Assembly: GCA_017561885.1 (NCBI GenBank)
Contig: JAFZBF010000006.1
Coordinates: 1-64,000, forward strand
Length of the DNA stretch: 64,000 nt
Direction of reading: 5' to 3'
Source of the DNA: Bacteroidales bacterium
GTDB taxonomy: Bacteria > Bacteroidota > Bacteroidia > Bacteroidales > UBA932
Made by a program: the position numbers and the translations under genes. The notes below the pieces were generated by a model that was not told the DNA's origin, ran no database searches, and was given only the letters and a program-made list of their open reading frames with translations. Below, piece by piece: positions 4,313-13,387 of this stretch; the first letter of the stretch is position 1; each line of letters opens with the position of its first letter.

Positions 4313-5038
4313 TTATATATCAGCATAATCTTCGAATGCCGCGACAGCCTGCGGCGTACCCATATCTTTCAGTTTGAAACCTTCGGGAACTGCGGAACGG
4401 ATGCAATGGTCGAAACTCATTGCAAGATAGAAGTCGATGACGGAGAATCTGGCGGGCCATTTTTCCATAAGGTCGAAAACCTCCGGACTTATCAGATGAA
4501 TGCCGGAAAAGGCCAGCTCACGGGCCACAAGTTCAGGTCTGGCAGCAGCAGGGCCCTTCACTTCGGAAGTCTTAAGATTTATCCAGCCGCAGAGGCAGTC
4601 CTCAGCATCGAACAGCAGCTTGCGGCTCGACGGCCGGTCGCTGACAACCAGCCTTGCAAGAGCGCCGGCCAGTCCTTCCTCCACGAAACTGCGGATATCC
4701 AGATTGGACACTATGTCCACATTGTGCACCAGGAAGGGCTCGTCGCCCAGCAGGTCGCGGGCCGCGGCAATGGCTCCGCCCGTATCCAGCAGCAGCGAAC
4801 GCTCGTCGCTTATGGACACATTGCAGCCGAAGTTGTCATGCTCAGCCAGAAAATCCACGATCTGATCGGCAAAATGGTGGACGTTCACAACGAAGTCCGT
4901 AAATCCCGCAGCCTTGAGCGTATCGAAAGTACGCTCCAGCATAGTCTTTCCCGCCACCTCGACCAGCGCCTTCGGCCTGTCGAACGTCAGCGGTCTCAGT
5001 CTGGTGCCGAGTCCCGCGGCGAAAATGAAAGCTTTCAT
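4313..5038 (-). CDS. MurU-like sugar-1-phosphate nucleotidyltransferase
   Basis: Predicted to join a nucleoside triphosphate to a sugar 1-phosphate. The N-terminal signature GLGTRLRPLTFDRPKALVEV and the length of 241 residues match MurU (MurNAc-1-P uridylyltransferase) and related mannose-1-P guanylyltransferases. Its start overlaps the stop of the AmgK-like kinase fusion by 4 bases (ATGA), so the two are probably translationally coupled. AmgK plus MurU is the known two-step route from MurNAc to UDP-MurNAc in cell-wall recycling, which favours that role here. The class is clear; the substrate is inferred from the neighbour. It is the last gene of the operon. Confidence 0.85.
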   Translation of the reverse strand: MKAFIFAAGLGTRLRPLTFDRPKALVEVAGKTMLERTFDTLKAAGFTDFVVNVHHFADQIVDFLAEHDNFGCNVSISDERSLLLDTGGAIAAARDLLGDEPFLVHNVDIVSNLDIRSFVEEGLAGALARLVVSDRPSSRKLLFDAEDCLCGWINLKTSEVKGPAAARPELVARELAFSGIHLISPEVFDLMEKWPARFSVIDFYLAMSFDHCIRSAVPEGFKLKDMGTPQAVAAFEDYADI

Positions 5039-6495
5039 CGCACTGTTCCCTCCATATGACCCGGAAGCCTGAGGTGCCTTTCGACAACCTTTATCTCAGG
5101 AAACATCCCGGCAAGATGCCCGGCCAGGGCGTGGGCACAGTAGACAGAACGGTGCTGGCCCCCGGTGCATCCGAACGAGAACATCAGATGGCTGAAGCCG
5201 CGCTCGATGTATCTGGCCACGTGTTTCTCTGCCACCGGGTAGATGTGCGACAGATACTCGGCCGCGCCCCCGTCATTCTCGATAAACTCGATGACATCAG
5301 CGTCAAGGCCTGTAGAATGGTCATATCTCGCATATCTGCCCGGATTGTTCAGTCCACGGACATCGAAGACATAGCCACCTCCGTTGCCGCTGTAATCTTT
5401 GGGCAAGCCTTTCTTGAATGAGAAACTGCATACCTCGACGGTCAGAACGTTTTCTTCCAGCTGAGGAACATTCATCAGCTCAGGATCAGCAGCAAGAGCG
5501 CGGGCCATCCTGTATATATATGGATAATCTTCTTTCAGGCCGGCGGCAAGTTCCTTAAGATTCCTGATTGCCGCAGGGATGCTCTGCAGGAAATGCCCCT
5601 TGCCCTCGTGCAGCCCGCGGAAACCGTAAGCCCCGAGAACCTGCAGGGTGCGGAAAAGGGCGAAGTGCCGCAATTCCTGTCGGAATGCCTCCCTGTCAAC
5701 ATCCTTGTATGCCTGAAGGGCGTCGATATAGACATCAGTCAGCGCCTCCTTGAGCGAAGCGGGATAGTTCATCCTGGCCTGCCACAGAAAAGACACCAGG
5801 TCATAATGGGCAGGTCCCCTCCGGGCTCCCTGGAAGTCTATGAAATACGGCGTGCCGTCCTTTATCATCACGTTGCGGCTCTGGAAGTCGCGGTACATGA
5901 AGCAGTCGCAAGGAACTTCCAGCAACTTTTCCGCAAGAGCGTCGAAATCGTCCTGCAATGCCGGCTCGTCAATCTCGAACTTGGTCAGCTTGAGGAAGCA
6001 ATATTTGAAATACGAAAGGTCCCATCCTACCATCCTGCGGTCAAAACACTCGGAAGGATAGCATACACTCCAGTCCATACCGCGAGCGCCCTTGTACTGG
6101 ATGTCGGCAAGAGTGCTTATGACATCCGCCAGCAAAGCCCTGGCAGCCGCAGTATATCTTCCGGAACGGCATTCCGCAGTCAGTATCTTTGCCAGCGAAA
6201 TGTCCCCGAGATCCTGCTGCAGATAGCACATCCCGTTACTGGAAGCATACAGGATTGCAGGCACGTTCAGGCCCAAGGCTGCAAGATGTCGGGACATATA
6301 CAGGAAAGCCTTGTTTTCGGCCTTTACCGTGCCGACCGTGGCCACGGCGCTCCCGGCCGGGGAGCTGAGGCGGACATATCTGCGGTTGCTGCCGCTTCCG
6401 GCATTGACTCTGGAAACAGTATCAGGAGAGCAGCCGAAAATACCCTTGTAGGCCTCTGCCAGTTCAGACATATAATGTTGTTTGTCCATTGTCAT
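5035..6495 (-). CDS. AmgK-like amino-sugar kinase fused to RapZ C-terminal domain
   Basis: Residues about 20-330 form an aminoglycoside-phosphotransferase fold kinase: the catalytic loop YRDFQSRN (D203, N208) and metal motif DFQG (D220) resemble AmgK, the anomeric MurNAc/GlcNAc kinase. Residues about 350-486 match the C-terminal domain of RapZ, including FDVRGLNNPGRY and FSFGCTGGQHRSV (439-451). The usual RapZ N-terminal P-loop ATPase is absent. In Escherichia coli the RapZ C-terminal domain senses glucosamine-6-phosphate and controls GlmS synthesis, so the fusion may link amino-sugar recycling to sensing of its product; that is inference. Starts and ends overlap both neighbours by 4 bases (ATGA). 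Confidence 0.88.
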   Translation of the reverse strand: MTMDKQHYMSELAEAYKGIFGCSPDTVSRVNAGSGSNRRYVRLSSPAGSAVATVGTVKAENKAFLYMSRHLAALGLNVPAILYASSNGMCYLQQDLGDISLAKILTAECRSGRYTAAARALLADVISTLADIQYKGARGMDWSVCYPSECFDRRMVGWDLSYFKYCFLKLTKFEIDEPALQDDFDALAEKLLEVPCDCFMYRDFQSRNVMIKDGTPYFIDFQGARRGPAHYDLVSFLWQARMNYPASLKEALTDVYIDALQAYKDVDREAFRQELRHFALFRTLQVLGAYGFRGLHEGKGHFLQSIPAAIRNLKELAAGLKEDYPYIYRMARALAADPELMNVPQLEENVLTVEVCSFSFKKGLPKDYSGNGGGYVFDVRGLNNPGRYARYDHSTGLDADVIEFIENDGGAAEYLSHIYPVAEKHVARYIERGFSHLMFSFGCTGGQHRSVYCAHALAGHLAGMFPEIKVVERHLRLPGHMEGTVR

Positions 6496-7736
6496 TCCAT
6501 CCTCAATGTTTTAGCCGGATCGACTTTCGCGATGAAAGTCGAGGTAAGTTTCAGAATCAGCATAATCACTGCGACAGATATTGCATCGATCAGCAATATG
6601 AGCCAGATATCTATCTCGATAGGCACGTAAGACACGAAATAGCTCACCGGATCCAGCTTTACTATATGCAGCCACTTCTGGAGCAGACAGACTGCCAGAG
6701 CGGCGATATTGCCCCACAGCAGCCCCTTCCCCACTATGTTCAAGGCCACGTTGCGGAAGACTCTCGATACTGAAGCCGATGTCATCCCGAGCGCCTTCAG
6801 CAGACCTATCGAGGATATGTTCTCGAACAGGATGATGAGAAGAGTGGATATCATATTGAATCCGGCCACCGCCATCATCAGTATAAGAATCGTCACCACG
6901 TTGTAGTCCAGCAGGTTCAGCCAGTCGAACAAGTTGGAGAAAATCCGTTTCACGCTGAGCAGGAACACCGAAGGATCGTCGTCAGCCAGATTGGAGAACA
7001 CATATTCTTCGAGTTCCGAATAGCACAGGTCGATATTGGCCCGCTTGTCAAGGACAACTTCCATCGCAGACACTTCATCCTTTTCCCAGCCGTTGACAGT
7101 CTGGCAGTGGCGTATGTCAGCCACTATCATGGCATTGTCGATCTCTTCGAGTTGTGCGTCGTAGATTCCGCATATCTTGAAATTGCGGAAATTCACTTTA
7201 TCCTTGATGAAAAAAGCCGGCACTGTGCTTCCGACCTCATAGCCCATCTTGTCAGCAATGCGTCTGGACACCATTATCTCGCTGGATGGCCTGTCTCCGC
7301 TGTAATCCGGCAGTTCACCCGCATCAAGGCAGGACCTGAAGAAACTGAAATCATAAAGGCTGTCCACGCCCTTGAAATAACTGCCCAGCAGTTCATCCCC
7401 TTCCCGGACCAGGCCTGAGGCATAAGCCACCCGCTGGATATTCTTGACATAGGCTTTCGAGAGCATACCGTCCAGAATCGAAATGCTGTCCTTGAACGGG
7501 TACTGGTCGTTCAGAGGAGACTGTCCGGGAGCCACGAGGGCAAGATCGCCCATATATCCTGAAGTCTTGAAACGGATCTCGCTCCTGAATCCCCTGACGA
7601 CACAGAGTGCCACTATTATGACAAAAATGCTCACAGCTACGGATACCAGTCCGATACGGGTGCTCATCGAGCTGATTCTCTCCCCGCCGTCAGACTTGTT
7701 CCTGATCCCGGATGCTATGAACTTATATACACTCAT
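6492..7736 (-). CDS. LolE/FtsX-type ABC transporter permease
   Basis: Integral membrane protein of 414 residues with the MacB/LolCE architecture: one membrane helix near residues 28-50 (VSVAVSIFVIIVALCVV), a large periplasmic domain, then three C-terminal helices (about 275-405). Family members move lipoproteins or work as mechanotransmitters for envelope enzymes. No ATPase partner lies next to it, so the partner must be encoded elsewhere. It sits between the MltF-like transglycosylase and the kinase fusion, overlapping both by 4 bases, which hints at an envelope role, either lipoprotein sorting or control of wall hydrolysis. The exact function is not settled by sequence. Confidence 0.85.
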   Translation of the reverse strand: MSVYKFIASGIRNKSDGGERISSMSTRIGLVSVAVSIFVIIVALCVVRGFRSEIRFKTSGYMGDLALVAPGQSPLNDQYPFKDSISILDGMLSKAYVKNIQRVAYASGLVREGDELLGSYFKGVDSLYDFSFFRSCLDAGELPDYSGDRPSSEIMVSRRIADKMGYEVGSTVPAFFIKDKVNFRNFKICGIYDAQLEEIDNAMIVADIRHCQTVNGWEKDEVSAMEVVLDKRANIDLCYSELEEYVFSNLADDDPSVFLLSVKRIFSNLFDWLNLLDYNVVTILILMMAVAGFNMISTLLIILFENISSIGLLKALGMTSASVSRVFRNVALNIVGKGLLWGNIAALAVCLLQKWLHIVKLDPVSYFVSYVPIEIDIWLILLIDAISVAVIMLILKLTSTFIAKVDPAKTLRME

Positions 7737-8755
7737 TTCTGCAATTCGCTGTACTGACGGTATCTGTACAATATTTCATCAACATAGCTGATAGTCTGCC
7801 CGCCGACAAAAGTCTGGTGGCTTGACAGGGACAAGGCGACCTGGTCCCAGTCGTTCGGGTTGTATCCGGCTTCCGCGGCATGTTCGCGGCACTGTTCTAT
7901 CCTGCCTTCGCCTGCATTGTAAGCCGCAAGTGCAAATTTAATGACATTGAGGGAGTCCATACCTTCTTCCCTGTACATTCTCATCAGATACTGCAGATGC
8001 AGCGTTCCGGCCTTGATGTTCAGTTCCGGATCATAGACATCGTCCACACCATAGTGGGCGGCAGTCGTCGGTTTGATCTGCATCAATCCGTGAGCCGAAC
8101 CCGACTGAGTACCCATATAGTATCTGGACTCCTGATAGGCCAGCGCAGACACGAGAATCCAGTCAAGTCCCGAGAAAGAACTGTACTTCTTGATGATATC
8201 ATCATATGGCGACAGCGAACGGGAACCCGTGCCCGCAATATTCTCGATCTGATATGAACGGAAGAAACGGTTGGTCATACGGGAATAAGTCCTGGAATCC
8301 TTGAATGAGTTAAGCCAGAAATTGAATGAATTCAGAAGAGGCGCATCATCCAGCCCGACCGCCGCACAGATATTCCCCCTGAGCGGCACAGTCAGAAGCA
8401 CCCGGTCCTCATACTGCCTGACAGAAACGGAATCATCGTCATAGTCAAAGACTATCAGGTCGATATCCCCACGTGACAGACTGTCCCATACGGATTTGTC
8501 AGCATATCTTGCAAAAGAGATATCCTTGCCGGTATCATCGGCGAAATAGTTCAGCAATTCATAGCTGAATCCTACGTCACGGCTGCTGAGGGAAGCTATG
8601 CTGCTCCTGATAGCAATACAGCACCTCAGATTATCGTCCCGTTCTATGACCGACGGCTCCTGTTCCTTGAAATGAGACTGCACTGCGACATATATCACAC
8701 ATAGCAATATAAGCGCGGTGATGAACCTGAACGCCGATGACTTTAGCAGACTCAT
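7733..8755 (-). CDS. MltF-like membrane-bound lytic transglycosylase
   Basis: Cleaves the glycan strands of peptidoglycan to 1,6-anhydroMurNAc ends. An N-terminal membrane anchor (FRFITALILLCVIYVAV) is followed by a short substrate-binding-protein-like domain (about 38-165) and a C-terminal SLT domain (about 190-325) with the catalytic Glu in ALAYQESRYY and the motif GSAHGLMQIKPTTA. At 340 residues it is shorter than Escherichia coli MltF, mostly in the first domain. It is directly abutted by the porin stop codon and overlaps the permease by 4 bases. Its products would feed the recycling enzymes encoded downstream. Confidence 0.88.
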   Translation of the reverse strand: MSLLKSSAFRFITALILLCVIYVAVQSHFKEQEPSVIERDDNLRCCIAIRSSIASLSSRDVGFSYELLNYFADDTGKDISFARYADKSVWDSLSRGDIDLIVFDYDDDSVSVRQYEDRVLLTVPLRGNICAAVGLDDAPLLNSFNFWLNSFKDSRTYSRMTNRFFRSYQIENIAGTGSRSLSPYDDIIKKYSSFSGLDWILVSALAYQESRYYMGTQSGSAHGLMQIKPTTAAHYGVDDVYDPELNIKAGTLHLQYLMRMYREEGMDSLNVIKFALAAYNAGEGRIEQCREHAAEAGYNPNDWDQVALSLSSHQTFVGGQTISYVDEILYRYRQYSELQK

Positions 8756-11341
8756 CTATTTTACGTAAAACGGCCAGGAGATGCCGAATTTGAAAGCCGT
8801 CGCCGGACGGATATAGTTGGCAGCGCTGAAGTGTCCCCTTTCGGGCCAGGCACTGAAAGCATCAGTATATTTCACGAAAATGCTCGCAGTCTTCCACTGC
8901 GCGTTCACGAACAGGTCGATATAGGGATTGTTTCCCCATTCGTAAGTGCGCTGATTATAGAACACACCGAGATCCGGACTGTAGCTCTGGATGAAGTATT
9001 TGGTATAGAATATGGCGTTTGCTCCGATCTGTACATCCAGCACGTTCTTCACTATAGGGAACTGGACATAATATCTCAGGTTGGCGGTCAGTTTGGGAAG
9101 AGGAAGGACCTTGTCGTCGGAAGTCATCTGATAGACGACCTTATGGTCGAAATGCAATGCCCACAGACGCAGATTCTGCTCGAGGGAAGCTGCCATGGTA
9201 TGGACTGGCTCACCGTTCTGCCTGATCATGGAAGTCTCGTCATAATATATCATATTGTCAAGCAGGGCGTATCCTACAGAAGCCTTTGTCTGGGTCAGCG
9301 GTATCTCGACGGAAGCCTCCAGTTTTGTGGCAGTCAGCTTGGAGAAATCGTTTTCCCACTGATGGTGATTCGAGAACAGATATTGATGATAATAATTCGG
9401 CGTCTGCCGGTTCATCTCTCCGTGAAACTTAAGATGGATTCCGTCCCGGAAAGGATAGACTGACAGAGCCAGATTTGCCGCCAGGTCCATATCTCCGAGG
9501 TAATAGCCGGAGGTATATATCCTTCCGAAGGCATCCCACTTGATATACTTCTTGAGCATACCCTGGGCCGTGCCATAGAAATAAGTGTTGTGATAATTGA
9601 AGTTCCTGTTGCCGGTGACATAGAACTCCGGCCTGAAACCATAGTAGCTCAGGAACTGGTATCCGGCTCCTGCAGTGACCTTGGACAGCAGCGCGTCGTT
9701 AGAGAACGGCTGCAATGTCAGGAACACCTTGTTATCGAAATTCCTTACGCTGATGGAATCGTAGCTTGCGACATTGTTCAGGTAGAAGCGGTCGAAATAG
9801 AAACCGCGTCCGTCCTGGTCGGTAAGGCCTATCTCGTCGGTATAGACTTTCGAGTACCTGGAGAGTTCCAGACTGTGACCGATATATGCTGCAGTTCCTT
9901 CTCCAAGTGACAGTTCATCTGCATCCTTCCTGAAAAAGTTCAAAGGAATCGAAAGGCTCTGGGTGATGAAGACAGTCCTTCTCTTTAAAAGGTTGTTCGC
10001 TTTCTGGAGATATACAGGCACCGCTTTGTTGTCGATCAGCGTATCCGTAACCCAGTAAGTGTCTGAAACTCCACCATTCTCGCCGTTCTTGACAGTCTGG
10101 CTCAGATATGCGGCGTTCATCTCGTATTTCTTGCCGATGTAGTCCAGACCGATCTCGGAAGTGCGGACATTGGTCTTGCCGCCGGTAAGGTCGCCCGTTC
10201 CTCCGAATTGCCGGAACTGCAGCGTAAGATTGAGCTCCGGCGTAATGTTCTGGGTGGACAGAATCTTGACGCTCGATTCTTCTTTCTGCTTGCTGCTGAA
10301 AGGATTGCCCCAGTATGCCAGTTCCGTGTAAGGGCTCTTGGTATTGTACATCGGAAGTGTCTCGGGGGTATATGAATAGATCAGATAGGGATCGAAGAAA
10401 GGAGCTTCCTTAAGCGTTTCGCGCTTGAAGAAATTTGTCCTCAGCAGCGCAGATCCCATCACTCCCAGATAAATCGCATCGGCATCGTCCTTCAAAGCCG
10501 GGTTGTCAAAGAAATTGTAGTTGGCAGAAGTGTCCCGTTCCTGCAGTTCGATATCGTTGTTGAACTGGCTATGGGTCCACATCAGCATATACTCGTAGTA
10601 AAGGGAATCCGGGACGACGAATGTCTCGAGGATACGGGGAGTATTCTTTACGACACTGTCTCGGTAATCTTGCTTGTTCTTCTTTATGGCTCGTTTGATA
10701 TCCTTGGCATCATGGAAGTTCGAGCTCATTGCCTCATAGTAAGCCGCCATCAACGAATCCATGAGCGGCATGGTGACGGTGTCGACCTTCCAGAACGAAT
10801 TGTACAGCACGTCAAGTGAATCTCTCAGAAGTTTCGTAGCCACCGGGTCCACTACCATGGCGTTTCGGATTTCGGCTTCGGTATATACTGCAGGTTCCTC
10901 TTCGTTATATTCTTCAGGTCCGGTGACTTCCGGCACGGTCTGGATTGCAGAAGAATCCTGAACCGCAGACGTGTCCCTTCCGGCGACACTCACATCCGAT
11001 ATCGTGGTATCCTCGTCGGGAACCGCCAAATGGACAAGTAGTGAAGAATCCAGCTTATAAACGACAGTGTCGCGCCACGGAACGTAAATCGAAGTGTCGG
11101 TAGCCGACATCAGATAATTCTGCTCGGCATAGATGCTTTCGAGGATTGCGTCAATCTTTGCCTGAAATACGCTGTCGACGACATATGCCGCATCGGGGGC
11201 TGTGCTGTCCTGAGCTGCAACCCCTGTATCCAGGCTGTTTCCGAGTTGTAAACGGTTAAATGAGAGATGCCGCGCCTGCGCAGCTGCGGCACAAAACACT
11301 ATCGCCAGTATCGCAAATATGAGCCGGCAACGCCTCATCAA
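8756..11341 (-). CDS. Putative outer-membrane porin (Bacteroidetes type)
   Basis: A protein of 861 residues with a signal peptide (MMRRCRLIFAILAIVFCAAAAQA), an acidic, Ser/Thr-rich N-terminal third (about 30-300), and a C-terminal half rich in alternating hydrophobic and aromatic strands, ending in ATAFKFGISWPFYVK as expected of a beta-barrel. It matches the Bacteroidetes family annotated as putative porin, whose substrate is unknown. Its start overlaps the nicotinamidase-like gene by 4 bases and its stop abuts the mltF-like start, so it is in the middle of the operon. Confidence 0.8.
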   Translation of the reverse strand: MMRRCRLIFAILAIVFCAAAAQARHLSFNRLQLGNSLDTGVAAQDSTAPDAAYVVDSVFQAKIDAILESIYAEQNYLMSATDTSIYVPWRDTVVYKLDSSLLVHLAVPDEDTTISDVSVAGRDTSAVQDSSAIQTVPEVTGPEEYNEEEPAVYTEAEIRNAMVVDPVATKLLRDSLDVLYNSFWKVDTVTMPLMDSLMAAYYEAMSSNFHDAKDIKRAIKKNKQDYRDSVVKNTPRILETFVVPDSLYYEYMLMWTHSQFNNDIELQERDTSANYNFFDNPALKDDADAIYLGVMGSALLRTNFFKRETLKEAPFFDPYLIYSYTPETLPMYNTKSPYTELAYWGNPFSSKQKEESSVKILSTQNITPELNLTLQFRQFGGTGDLTGGKTNVRTSEIGLDYIGKKYEMNAAYLSQTVKNGENGGVSDTYWVTDTLIDNKAVPVYLQKANNLLKRRTVFITQSLSIPLNFFRKDADELSLGEGTAAYIGHSLELSRYSKVYTDEIGLTDQDGRGFYFDRFYLNNVASYDSISVRNFDNKVFLTLQPFSNDALLSKVTAGAGYQFLSYYGFRPEFYVTGNRNFNYHNTYFYGTAQGMLKKYIKWDAFGRIYTSGYYLGDMDLAANLALSVYPFRDGIHLKFHGEMNRQTPNYYHQYLFSNHHQWENDFSKLTATKLEASVEIPLTQTKASVGYALLDNMIYYDETSMIRQNGEPVHTMAASLEQNLRLWALHFDHKVVYQMTSDDKVLPLPKLTANLRYYVQFPIVKNVLDVQIGANAIFYTKYFIQSYSPDLGVFYNQRTYEWGNNPYIDLFVNAQWKTASIFVKYTDAFSAWPERGHFSAANYIRPATAFKFGISWPFYVK

Positions 11342-11934
11342 TCATATTTGACGGCAATCATAAACTTGACGCCTCTTTCCTTCATCGCGGCTATTGCCTC
11401 ATCGTGTCCTTCCTTGGAGAAGTAGCCCAGGGCATCTTCAACCACGGTCACGTCGTGACCGGTTTCAAGGAGATCCTCGCAAGTGGCCTTGAGGCCGTAT
11501 TCGGTGGCGTTGCCGCACACAAGCACTTTTCTGGGAAGTGCCTTTGCCAATTCGCTTCCGAACGCAGTCTCGCCGGACATTCCGGAGTAGCTGTCATCAT
11601 CCGGAGCCATACCCTTCCTGTAGATGTTCTCCATCTGCGGACGGTTGTCTGTGTTGGAAAGAGAATAGAACGCAGCGTGGATGCTGTCGCCACGGGTTCC
11701 GTCAACGCAGTTGACAGGCCATATGCCGCCGTACTCTTTGAAAGAGCAGTGGTTAGATGGATGAGTATCCACCACGTAATAGGCTTTCAGCTTGGGATTG
11801 TTCTCAAGGAAGGCCGCAGCCCTGCGTGCAGCCAGCTCGGCACCTTCGCAAGCGAGCGTACCGTCTATGAAATCATAGAGCATATCAATGATGACTATGG
11901 CAGTCAGATCAGTCTTGGCTATGGCAGAAATCAT
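11338..11934 (-). CDS. Nicotinamidase-like isochorismatase-family hydrolase lacking the catalytic Cys
   Basis: Nicotinamidase (PncA) converts nicotinamide to nicotinate, and the adjacent nicotinate phosphoribosyltransferase gene fits that pathway. The protein has 198 residues with Asp17 (IIDMLYDF), metal ligands in DTHPSNHCSF (D56, H58) and Lys107 (YRKGMAPDDDSYSG). The position of the catalytic Cys, normally in ATEYCVxAT, reads ATEYGLKATC: Gly147 replaces Cys, and the DNA (GGC codon) agrees. A Cys occurs five residues later (C152). Activity is therefore uncertain. It overlaps the end of pncB by 26 bases. Confidence 0.82.
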   Translation of the reverse strand: MISAIAKTDLTAIVIIDMLYDFIDGTLACEGAELAARRAAAFLENNPKLKAYYVVDTHPSNHCSFKEYGGIWPVNCVDGTRGDSIHAAFYSLSNTDNRPQMENIYRKGMAPDDDSYSGMSGETAFGSELAKALPRKVLVCGNATEYGLKATCEDLLETGHDVTVVEDALGYFSKEGHDEAIAAMKERGVKFMIAVKYD

Positions 11935-13387
11935 CTATCTCTTTTATTATGGTGTTGATAATATTCATTTTCAAATCATAGAGGTCATCGGAAATATCCA
12001 CCTTGTAATAGTGGGGGTTGATGAGCCTCTTCTGTGTAGGGTTGAGGGCAGACAGGTTGTCGAGATAATACTGCCTGCGTTCCATTATGCTTCTGGTGTC
12101 GGCTGATACCACACCGTTATTGATAACCTGGACCTGGAGGGGCTTTGCCTGATAGCTGCCCGCCTTGTAGGTCGTGTGCCTTGTATCGTCGAACTCGGCA
12201 CGGATGGTGATTTCTTCTCCTGCGAGAAGTTTCTTTTCGAACGGGCCTCCGCGCAGGCAGGTCACGTCTGCCTTGAAGGCTCCGTTCTGGATGATACGGT
12301 AAGTGATCTGGAAGCCCGGATTGATCAGCTTGACTATGTCTTCCGAGCGTTTCAGGACAGGCTGGCCGTCAATCTGGACCAGCTTGTAAACATTGCCGAA
12401 GCAGGGGTTATGCTTGCTGGTGGCTATGGCATCTCCCACTCCGTAAGAATCTATGGCCGCGCCCTGGCGTTCCAGTTCGGGAATCAGATATTCGTCCAGG
12501 GAATTGGTCGCAAAGACTTTGCATTTAGAAAGGCCCGCCTTGTCAAGCTCGGCACGGCATTCCTGAGAAAGATATGCGAGGTCGCCGCTGTCCAGACGGA
12601 TTCCGTAGCCCTGGGCGTATGAATCGTCGATCCCGTTGGCCTTGAATGCACGGACTGCATTCTTCAGACCGCACTTGAGTGTGTCGAAAGTATCGATGAG
12701 GAGAATCAGTCCCTCACCGCGATGTGTCTTGATGTATGTGTCAAATGCCTTGTACTCGCTGTCTACAGAGACTCCGAAGGAAGTTACGTAGCTGTGAGCC
12801 ATCGTTCCGCTTGACTGGAAACCGAAAATGTCAGCAGAAAGTATGTTTGAGCTGTTGGCGCAGCCGCCGATGATCGCCGCCTTTCCGCCGTAAACTGCAG
12901 CCCATGGTCCGTGGGCCCTGCGGGAGCCGAATTCGCTCACGGGTCTGCTCGTGCTTCTTGAAACACGGGAAGCCTTGGTTGCGACTGCCATCTGGTGGTT
13001 CATTATACACAGCATAGGAGTCTCGAGCACCTGGGCTTCGATGAGCGGAGCTTCGACAATGATCACAGGCTCGCGAGGGAAGGCGATCTCGCCCTCCCTC
13101 ATTGCGTATACATTGCCCGTGAATTTCATAGAGGCGAGCATCTTGCGATATTCTGCGCAATCGTCGCCGGGAAGAAGATACTCGAAGAAACGTTCATCCA
13201 TATTGCCGAGACCGGATATCATCTGGAGCACTTCCTCGACACCGGAAACCACAGCCCAGTTGTTATTGTCCGGGGCAGTACGGTAAAAAAGGTTGAAGAC
13301 GGCGATCTTGTCCTTCATCCCGCTGTCGAAATAGGACTTTCCCATCGTATACTGGTACTTGTCCGAGCAATATGCTGTATTGAACAT
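11909..13387 (-). CDS. pncB: Nicotinate phosphoribosyltransferase
   Basis: Makes nicotinate mononucleotide from nicotinate and PRPP, the entry step of the Preiss-Handler NAD route. Family motifs include the N-terminal YKYTMG-like segment DKYQYTMGKSYFDSG, the central GFQSSGTMAHSYV and GIRLDSGDLAYLS. The length of 492 residues is typical. Gene order pncB then pncA-like, overlapping by 26 bases, points to joint expression. It heads the long minus-strand run that continues to 4313, with 27 bases to the OmpA gene upstream. Confidence 0.93.
   Translation of the reverse strand: MFNTAYCSDKYQYTMGKSYFDSGMKDKIAVFNLFYRTAPDNNNWAVVSGVEEVLQMISGLGNMDERFFEYLLPGDDCAEYRKMLASMKFTGNVYAMREGEIAFPREPVIIVEAPLIEAQVLETPMLCIMNHQMAVATKASRVSRSTSRPVSEFGSRRAHGPWAAVYGGKAAIIGGCANSSNILSADIFGFQSSGTMAHSYVTSFGVSVDSEYKAFDTYIKTHRGEGLILLIDTFDTLKCGLKNAVRAFKANGIDDSYAQGYGIRLDSGDLAYLSQECRAELDKAGLSKCKVFATNSLDEYLIPELERQGAAIDSYGVGDAIATSKHNPCFGNVYKLVQIDGQPVLKRSEDIVKLINPGFQITYRIIQNGAFKADVTCLRGGPFEKKLLAGEEITIRAEFDDTRHTTYKAGSYQAKPLQVQVINNGVVSADTRSIMERRQYYLDNLSALNPTQKRLINPHYYKVDISDDLYDLKMNIINTIIKEIDDFCHSQD

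Follow-up and report, generated by a model that had tools for sequence, protein, structure and literature searches.

We studied a fusion protein encoded in a 64,000-nucleotide stretch from a Bacteroidales bacterium (contig JAFZBF010000006.1; hereafter, the window). The fusion joins an AmgK-like sugar kinase to the C-terminal domain of RapZ (RapZ_C). Its gene is one of four on the minus strand (8755–4313), and in the open reading frame listing of the window, every neighbouring pair of these genes shares 4 bases. The first gene encodes an MltF-like lytic transglycosylase (340 amino acids, 7733–8755; SLT in Pfam, 1.1e-19; MltF in NCBIfam, 1.5e-33, below the cut-off), and the second encodes a LolC/E-like permease of the FtsX family (414 amino acids, 6492–7736; FtsX at 3.6e-9 and MacB_PCD at 4.4e-9 in Pfam; lolCE, TIGR02212, at 7.5e-34, below the cut-off). 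The fusion comes next (486 amino acids, 5035–6495), followed by a MurU-like nucleotidyltransferase (241 amino acids, 4313–5038; NTP_transferase in Pfam, 8.1e-17; MurU is the best NCBIfam match, 3.9e-37, below the cut-off). An earlier note had described this set of overlapping genes, and the reading frames, Pfam, and NCBIfam bear it out.

The earlier note also held that the kinase is fused to RapZ_C and that the ATPase half of RapZ is missing, and this is what we see. Where RapZ has its Walker A/B domain, the N-terminal part of the fusion (about residues 1–335; 5491–6495) is an APH-fold kinase (APH in Pfam, 2.6e-17 over residues 32–262; AmgK in NCBIfam, 1.2e-19; PDB 3csv, 2.4e-16). In the same frame, residues 352–475 (5071–5442) match RapZ_C (PF22740, 1.9e-29, or 102.8 bits against a Pfam cut-off of 27; PDB 5o5s, 8e-12). 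E. coli RapZ is the PDB sequence match for residues 347–466, and the match to the RapZ model NF003828 spans only model positions 156–268. The fusion is not a sequencing artefact, since it is a single open frame in the window and also in six relatives at 80–84% identity (rumen-type metagenome-assembled genomes). It holds the only RapZ_C that we detected by searching the window's genome.

RapZ_C and the kinase are closely associated across the phylum. Among 395 genomes of Bacteroidota, 49 have RapZ_C, mostly in frames of 476–524 amino acids (the fusion) and otherwise in free-standing frames of 134–169 amino acids. No RapZ_C frame in this survey has the length of a canonical RapZ (~285 amino acids). 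RapZ_C is also present in 124 of the 149 genomes that were sampled from the window's order. A profile of the kinase half gave strong matches (>249 bits) in 50 of the 395 genomes, including all 49 with RapZ_C (even those with unlinked genes) and just 1 of the 346 without it (Fisher p ~4e-62, with no correction for shared ancestry). At the 65 loci that we examined, the kinase and RapZ_C were fused (46), adjacent (15), or unlinked (4). These states switch several times on the kinase tree (its bootstrap did not converge and many forks are open), so the association outlives any single gene order. Because the association persists whether the partners share a protein, sit side by side or, in a few genomes, lie apart, the coupling looks functional. 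And because the two nearly always co-occur in the genomes that we searched, we suggest that the RapZ_C half serves the kinase. The earlier note had proposed, from the fusion, that RapZ_C is linked at the protein level to a kinase of wall sugars; this link is stronger than first claimed, as it holds for unlinked genes too.

The sole genome with the kinase but not RapZ_C (G009) has overlapping genes for the kinase and MurU (L130, 6090–7801), and it has no match for RapZ_C, AnmK, or NamZ. In two genomes of family f48, the unlinked RapZ_C adjoins a major facilitator gene (L077, 4773–6493, and L073, 4627–6441; the neighbour was identified by Pfam in L077 and by the likeness of its first residues in L073).

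Another 84 genomes, all from family f19, have a much weaker match to the kinase (83–146 bits) and lack RapZ_C. In each of the four f19 loci that we read, MurU directly follows the kinase. In L127 (6287–10886), the AmgK-like kinase, MurU, NamZ (exo-beta-N-acetylmuramidase), and a sodium:solute symporter are in series, which ties the kinase-MurU pair to N-acetylmuramic acid (MurNAc). L126, L128, and L129 have similar-looking genes where L127 has NamZ and the symporter, with the Pfam identification made in L127 only. So a related kinase does not require RapZ_C.

The proteins of the locus are AmgK-like and MurU-like, and not certified orthologues, because all of the NCBIfam matches are far below the equivalog cut-offs. 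The kinase part of the fusion scores 70.6 bits against AmgK (cut-off 550), and the kinases that we tested from Bacteroidota score 28–71 bits (cut-offs 500–550). The window's MurU-like protein scores 127.9 bits against a cut-off of 370 and 120.7 bits against a cut-off of 250. But AmgK and MurU were the top NCBIfam matches in every case tested, and to this extent the original assignments stand. The kinase shares the APH fold, SxRRY-type and xRDFxxxN motifs, and a MurU neighbour with the AmgK of Pseudomonas, Caulobacter, and others (NF045759, NF045698), although the AmgK models lack RapZ_C. Its catalytic loop is YRDFQSRN (residues 201–208; 5872–5895), with R, D, F, Q, and N invariant in all 61 aligned kinases. 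D203, N208, and D220, which are the catalytic-loop and metal residues, are invariant as well, so that the APH fold is accompanied by its catalytic aspartate and metal ligands. PDB entry 3csv was named an aminoglycoside phosphotransferase by its depositors. The MurU-like protein shares the NTP-transferase fold and the pairing with AmgK with the MurU families (NF045697, NF045761), and its matches in PDB include 4y7t (2.2e-22) and 8hhd (5.6e-21), the latter named N-acetylmuramate alpha-1-phosphate uridylyltransferase. Its gene overlaps the fusion gene in the window, and it adjoins the kinase in most of the loci that we examined.

The RapZ_C of the window contains the anion loop C443-TGGQH-R449 (CX5R; 5149–5169), which is conserved in Bacteroidota and is also found in E. 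coli RapZ. In an alignment of 65 RapZ_C domains from Bacteroidota, C443 and S450 are present in all 65, and T444, H448, and R449 are each present in 64. C443, T444, H448, and R449 correspond to C247, T248, H252, and R253 of the anion pocket of E. coli RapZ (PMC5737377, PMC9841335). Of the pocket residues H190, T248, G249, H252, and R253, the last four are kept in the window (as T444, G445, H448, and R449), but the position of H190 is occupied by G386. This position is histidine in 7 and tyrosine or phenylalanine in 3 of 10 canonical or plasmid-borne RapZ_C from other phyla (including E. coli), and changing H190 of E. coli RapZ to alanine inactivates it (PMC9841335). An insertion (SGNGGG) immediately ahead of the FDCR strand is common to the RapZ_C of Bacteroidota. 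Judging from these residues, the site retains its phosphate-binding part but has a changed shell around it. RapZ_C from E. coli binds glucosamine 6-phosphate (GlcN6P) on its own (PMC7073468). Because His190 is replaced by glycine here, specificity for GlcN6P cannot be transferred from E. coli. Sensing of GlcN6P by the fusion, an idea of the earlier note, is no more than a possibility.

Among the closest relatives, the ratio of nonsynonymous to synonymous substitution rates (dN/dS) is 0.03–0.05 for RapZ_C and 0.09–0.14 for the kinase part (with synonymous sites near saturation), which suggests that RapZ_C is under stronger purifying selection. A structural model of RapZ_C alone had a mean predicted local distance difference test score (pLDDT) of 66, and its best match is the C-terminal domain of E. 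coli RapZ (Z = 9.7, root-mean-square deviation 3.0, 102 aligned residues). In this model, strand 92–100 and helix 103–120 flank the CX5R loop. A fold search with this weak model found strong matches to RapZ structures only, and no tyrosine-phosphatase chain was listed. (An AlphaFold model of the whole fusion, with only seven close sequences aligned, had a pLDDT of 49 and was not used.) One fused copy (L119, 5832–7229) has a decayed anion loop (GCASGRLSS) in which the arginine is lost, yet the fusion is retained.

What is the source of the kinase's substrate? Lytic transglycosylases of the MltF type release anhydro-MurNAc, and the known route from this product needs AnmK before AmgK. We found no match for AnmK in the window's genome, which is 85% complete, nor in two near-complete genomes from the same family, and no match for MurQ above a GlmS-like background in these three genomes (in the window's genome, the match, at 38 bits, comes from the SIS region of a GlmS-sized frame of 631 amino acids). 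We therefore rejected the entry of MurNAc 6-phosphate via AnmK in the window's organism, and direct flow from MltF to the kinase is unsupported. In place of AnmK and MurQ, all three genomes have NamZ, which frees MurNAc, so going by gene content, free MurNAc is the likely substrate of the kinase in this organism. Tannerella forsythia grows weakly on anhydro-MurNAc without a predicted AnmK (PMC7670621).

The earlier note had also suggested that the fusion may link wall breakdown to precursor supply, and this holds only in part: RapZ_C is indeed tied to a wall-sugar kinase, but the product of MltF has no known route to AmgK in a genome where AnmK was not found. Nor is the order MltF, permease, kinase, MurU, whose spread the earlier note left to be checked, kept as a unit. 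Among the loci examined, the window and six close relatives (L032–L037) are the only ones with the MltF and permease genes ahead of the fusion, and we rejected the idea of a conserved four-gene unit. In another locus from the same family (L087), the permease is on the other side, in convergent orientation.

We propose that RapZ_C is a module that binds an amino-sugar phosphate and thereby sets the activity of the kinase in the AmgK/MurU salvage of Bacteroidota. Given its family, the kinase half would phosphorylate C1 of MurNAc, and probably of N-acetylglucosamine (GlcNAc) as well. MurU, again by family membership, would convert the 1-phosphate to UDP-MurNAc, so that MurA and MurB are bypassed. 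Comparative genomics shows that RapZ_C accompanies this kinase almost constantly throughout the phylum, as a fusion, as a neighbour, or in trans. RapZ_C would use its CTGGxHRS loop, which is almost invariant, to hold a cytosolic amino-sugar phosphate by its phosphate group. Ligand-bound RapZ_C, whether by fusion or in a complex, would then set the kinase's activity, and salvage would track the precursor pool. We estimate the probability of this proposal at about 0.5.

Several observations weigh against it. The invariant cysteine points to chemistry more than to simple binding, and both C247A and C247S abolish the function of E. coli RapZ (PMC9841335). The equivalent of H190 is glycine in 63 of the 65 RapZ_C from Bacteroidota, near the lineage-specific insertion. 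Nothing about a pure sensor would require so strict an association with the kinase when the two are in trans. The co-occurrence counts take no account of shared ancestry. And every kinase and MurU score is below the NCBIfam equivalog cut-offs.

Alternatively, the fusion might be a bifunctional phosphatase-kinase: a cysteine-dependent RapZ_C would strip the 6-phosphate from MurNAc 6-phosphate or a related sugar and pass the dephosphorylated sugar on to the kinase, in the role that MupP has in the Pseudomonas route. A CX5RS loop is the signature of cysteine-dependent phosphatases, and here the cysteine (65/65), the arginine (64/65), and S450 (invariant) are all conserved. Khan and Gorke have already pointed out the likeness to the tyrosine-phosphatase loop and raised the possibility of GlcN6P hydrolysis by RapZ (PMC7199280). 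Besides the loss of RapZ activity in the C247S mutant, the crystal density for GlcN6P looked as if the ligand had been chemically transformed (PMC9841335). RapZ_C is also maintained as a separate gene. Furthermore, AnmK is present in 31 of 49 kinase genomes with RapZ_C and in 0 of 85 without it (weak support, as the 85 represent just two lineages), and in the window's order, it is present in 92 of 124 genomes with RapZ_C and in 6 of the 25 others. However, the loop is intact in the window's genome and in the two near-complete genomes of its family, where the lack of a match for AnmK or MurQ implies no known source of MurNAc 6-phosphate among the enzymes searched (a set that did not include MurK). 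Also, the fold search, though a weak test, gave RapZ alone as a strong match and no phosphatase, and L119 keeps the fusion despite having lost the arginine. We think that the bifunctional enzyme is plausible but rather unlikely. Somewhat more doubtful is its fuller version, in which RapZ_C is an amino-sugar-phosphate phosphatase that depends on its cysteine and, in Bacteroidota, forms with AmgK a single protein that turns MurNAc phosphate into MurNAc 1-phosphate; the sensing role of RapZ in E. coli would then have arisen later, from that enzyme. We rank the regulatory binding module first and the phosphatase second, with little between them, because AnmK and MurQ were not found, the loop is kept in the window and in both family genomes, and NamZ is present.

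Or RapZ_C might mainly dimerise or stabilise the kinase, with a vestigial ligand site. The C-terminal domain of E. coli RapZ does form dimers (PMC5737377), and the degenerate loop of L119 would fit. But few parts of RapZ_C are as conserved as the anion loop, and RapZ_C persists as a separate and even unlinked gene, so this seems improbable to us. Still less credible is a different substrate for the kinase and nucleotidyltransferase, such as a heptose, in place of MurNAc or GlcNAc. All of the scores are below the equivalog cut-offs, and heptose and mannose nucleotidyltransferases match too, but NCBIfam ranks AmgK and MurU first in each case tested, a related kinase-MurU pair is located with NamZ (in f19), and T. 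forsythia AmgK and MurU accept MurNAc probes, which enables labelling in E. coli (PMC13041923). Finally, that the fusion is a true RNase adapter that handles small RNAs, as its RefSeq name ("RNase adapter RapZ") implies, is hard to believe: the fusion lacks the N-terminal half required for the tetramer that presents GlmZ (PMC9841335), H190, which is essential in E. coli RapZ, is glycine here, and the RNA-binding tail of RapZ is confined to Enterobacteriaceae, in step with GlmY/GlmZ (PMC7073468).

The fusion resembles several known systems. With RapZ (YhbJ/YvcJ; NF003828, PF22740) of E. coli and others, it shares the C-terminal domain, the CTGGxHRS anion loop, and the equivalent of R184, but it differs in lacking the ATPase half, in the change of His190 to glycine, in the SGNGGG insertion, and in having a sugar kinase as its partner. 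With the MupP-AmgK-MurU route of Pseudomonas (PMC13041923, PMC13046382), it has in common the path from MurNAc to MurNAc 1-phosphate to UDP-MurNAc. But in Pseudomonas, a separate phosphatase, MupP, supplies AmgK, while in Bacteroidota, RapZ_C is the constant partner instead. T. forsythia, whose AmgK and MurU have been described (PMC7670621, PMC13041923), belongs to the same phylum, and Parabacteroides, which is listed under the same family (Tannerellaceae), has the fusion beside MurU.

In the open-access literature, we found no paper that joins RapZ with AmgK, nor any on the fusion. RapZ_C has been studied mainly within the enterobacterial RNA adapter. Its strict tie to a wall-sugar kinase across a phylum offers a concrete setting, apart from RNA control, in which to test whether it senses or hydrolyses an amino-sugar phosphate. 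In a plasmid collection, the fusion is present in Bacteroides finegoldii, Parabacteroides distasonis, Phocaeicola massiliensis, and Prevotella F0039 (these records are large and non-mobilizable and may be chromosomal pieces). RefSeq labels the fusion "RNase adapter RapZ" in B. finegoldii (L135, 5992–7422) and P. distasonis (L136, 5989–7419), which hides the kinase half, and in both, the next gene is MurU-like and is labelled "nucleotidyltransferase family protein." Common gut bacteria (Bacteroides and Parabacteroides) thus appear to hold AmgK/MurU-type salvage under this name, which bears on fosfomycin tolerance and on labelling with MurNAc probes. Among the plasmid records that match RapZ_C, 39 of 94 are from Streptomyces. 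On one 31-kb Streptomyces plasmid, RapZ_C is a stand-alone gene of 161 amino acids with the loop CIGGRHRS (L146, 610–1095).

In the window, three more minus-strand genes lie upstream of the MltF gene (8756–13387) and run into it with overlaps or zero gap. They encode a Porin_10 protein, an isochorismatase-family (nicotinamidase-like) protein, and a probable nicotinate phosphoribosyltransferase, the last named from its sequence alone. A seven-gene transcript that combines NAD salvage with wall salvage is possible. In another locus of the same family (L086), genes for these three kinds of protein are on the opposite strand from the fusion and MurU.

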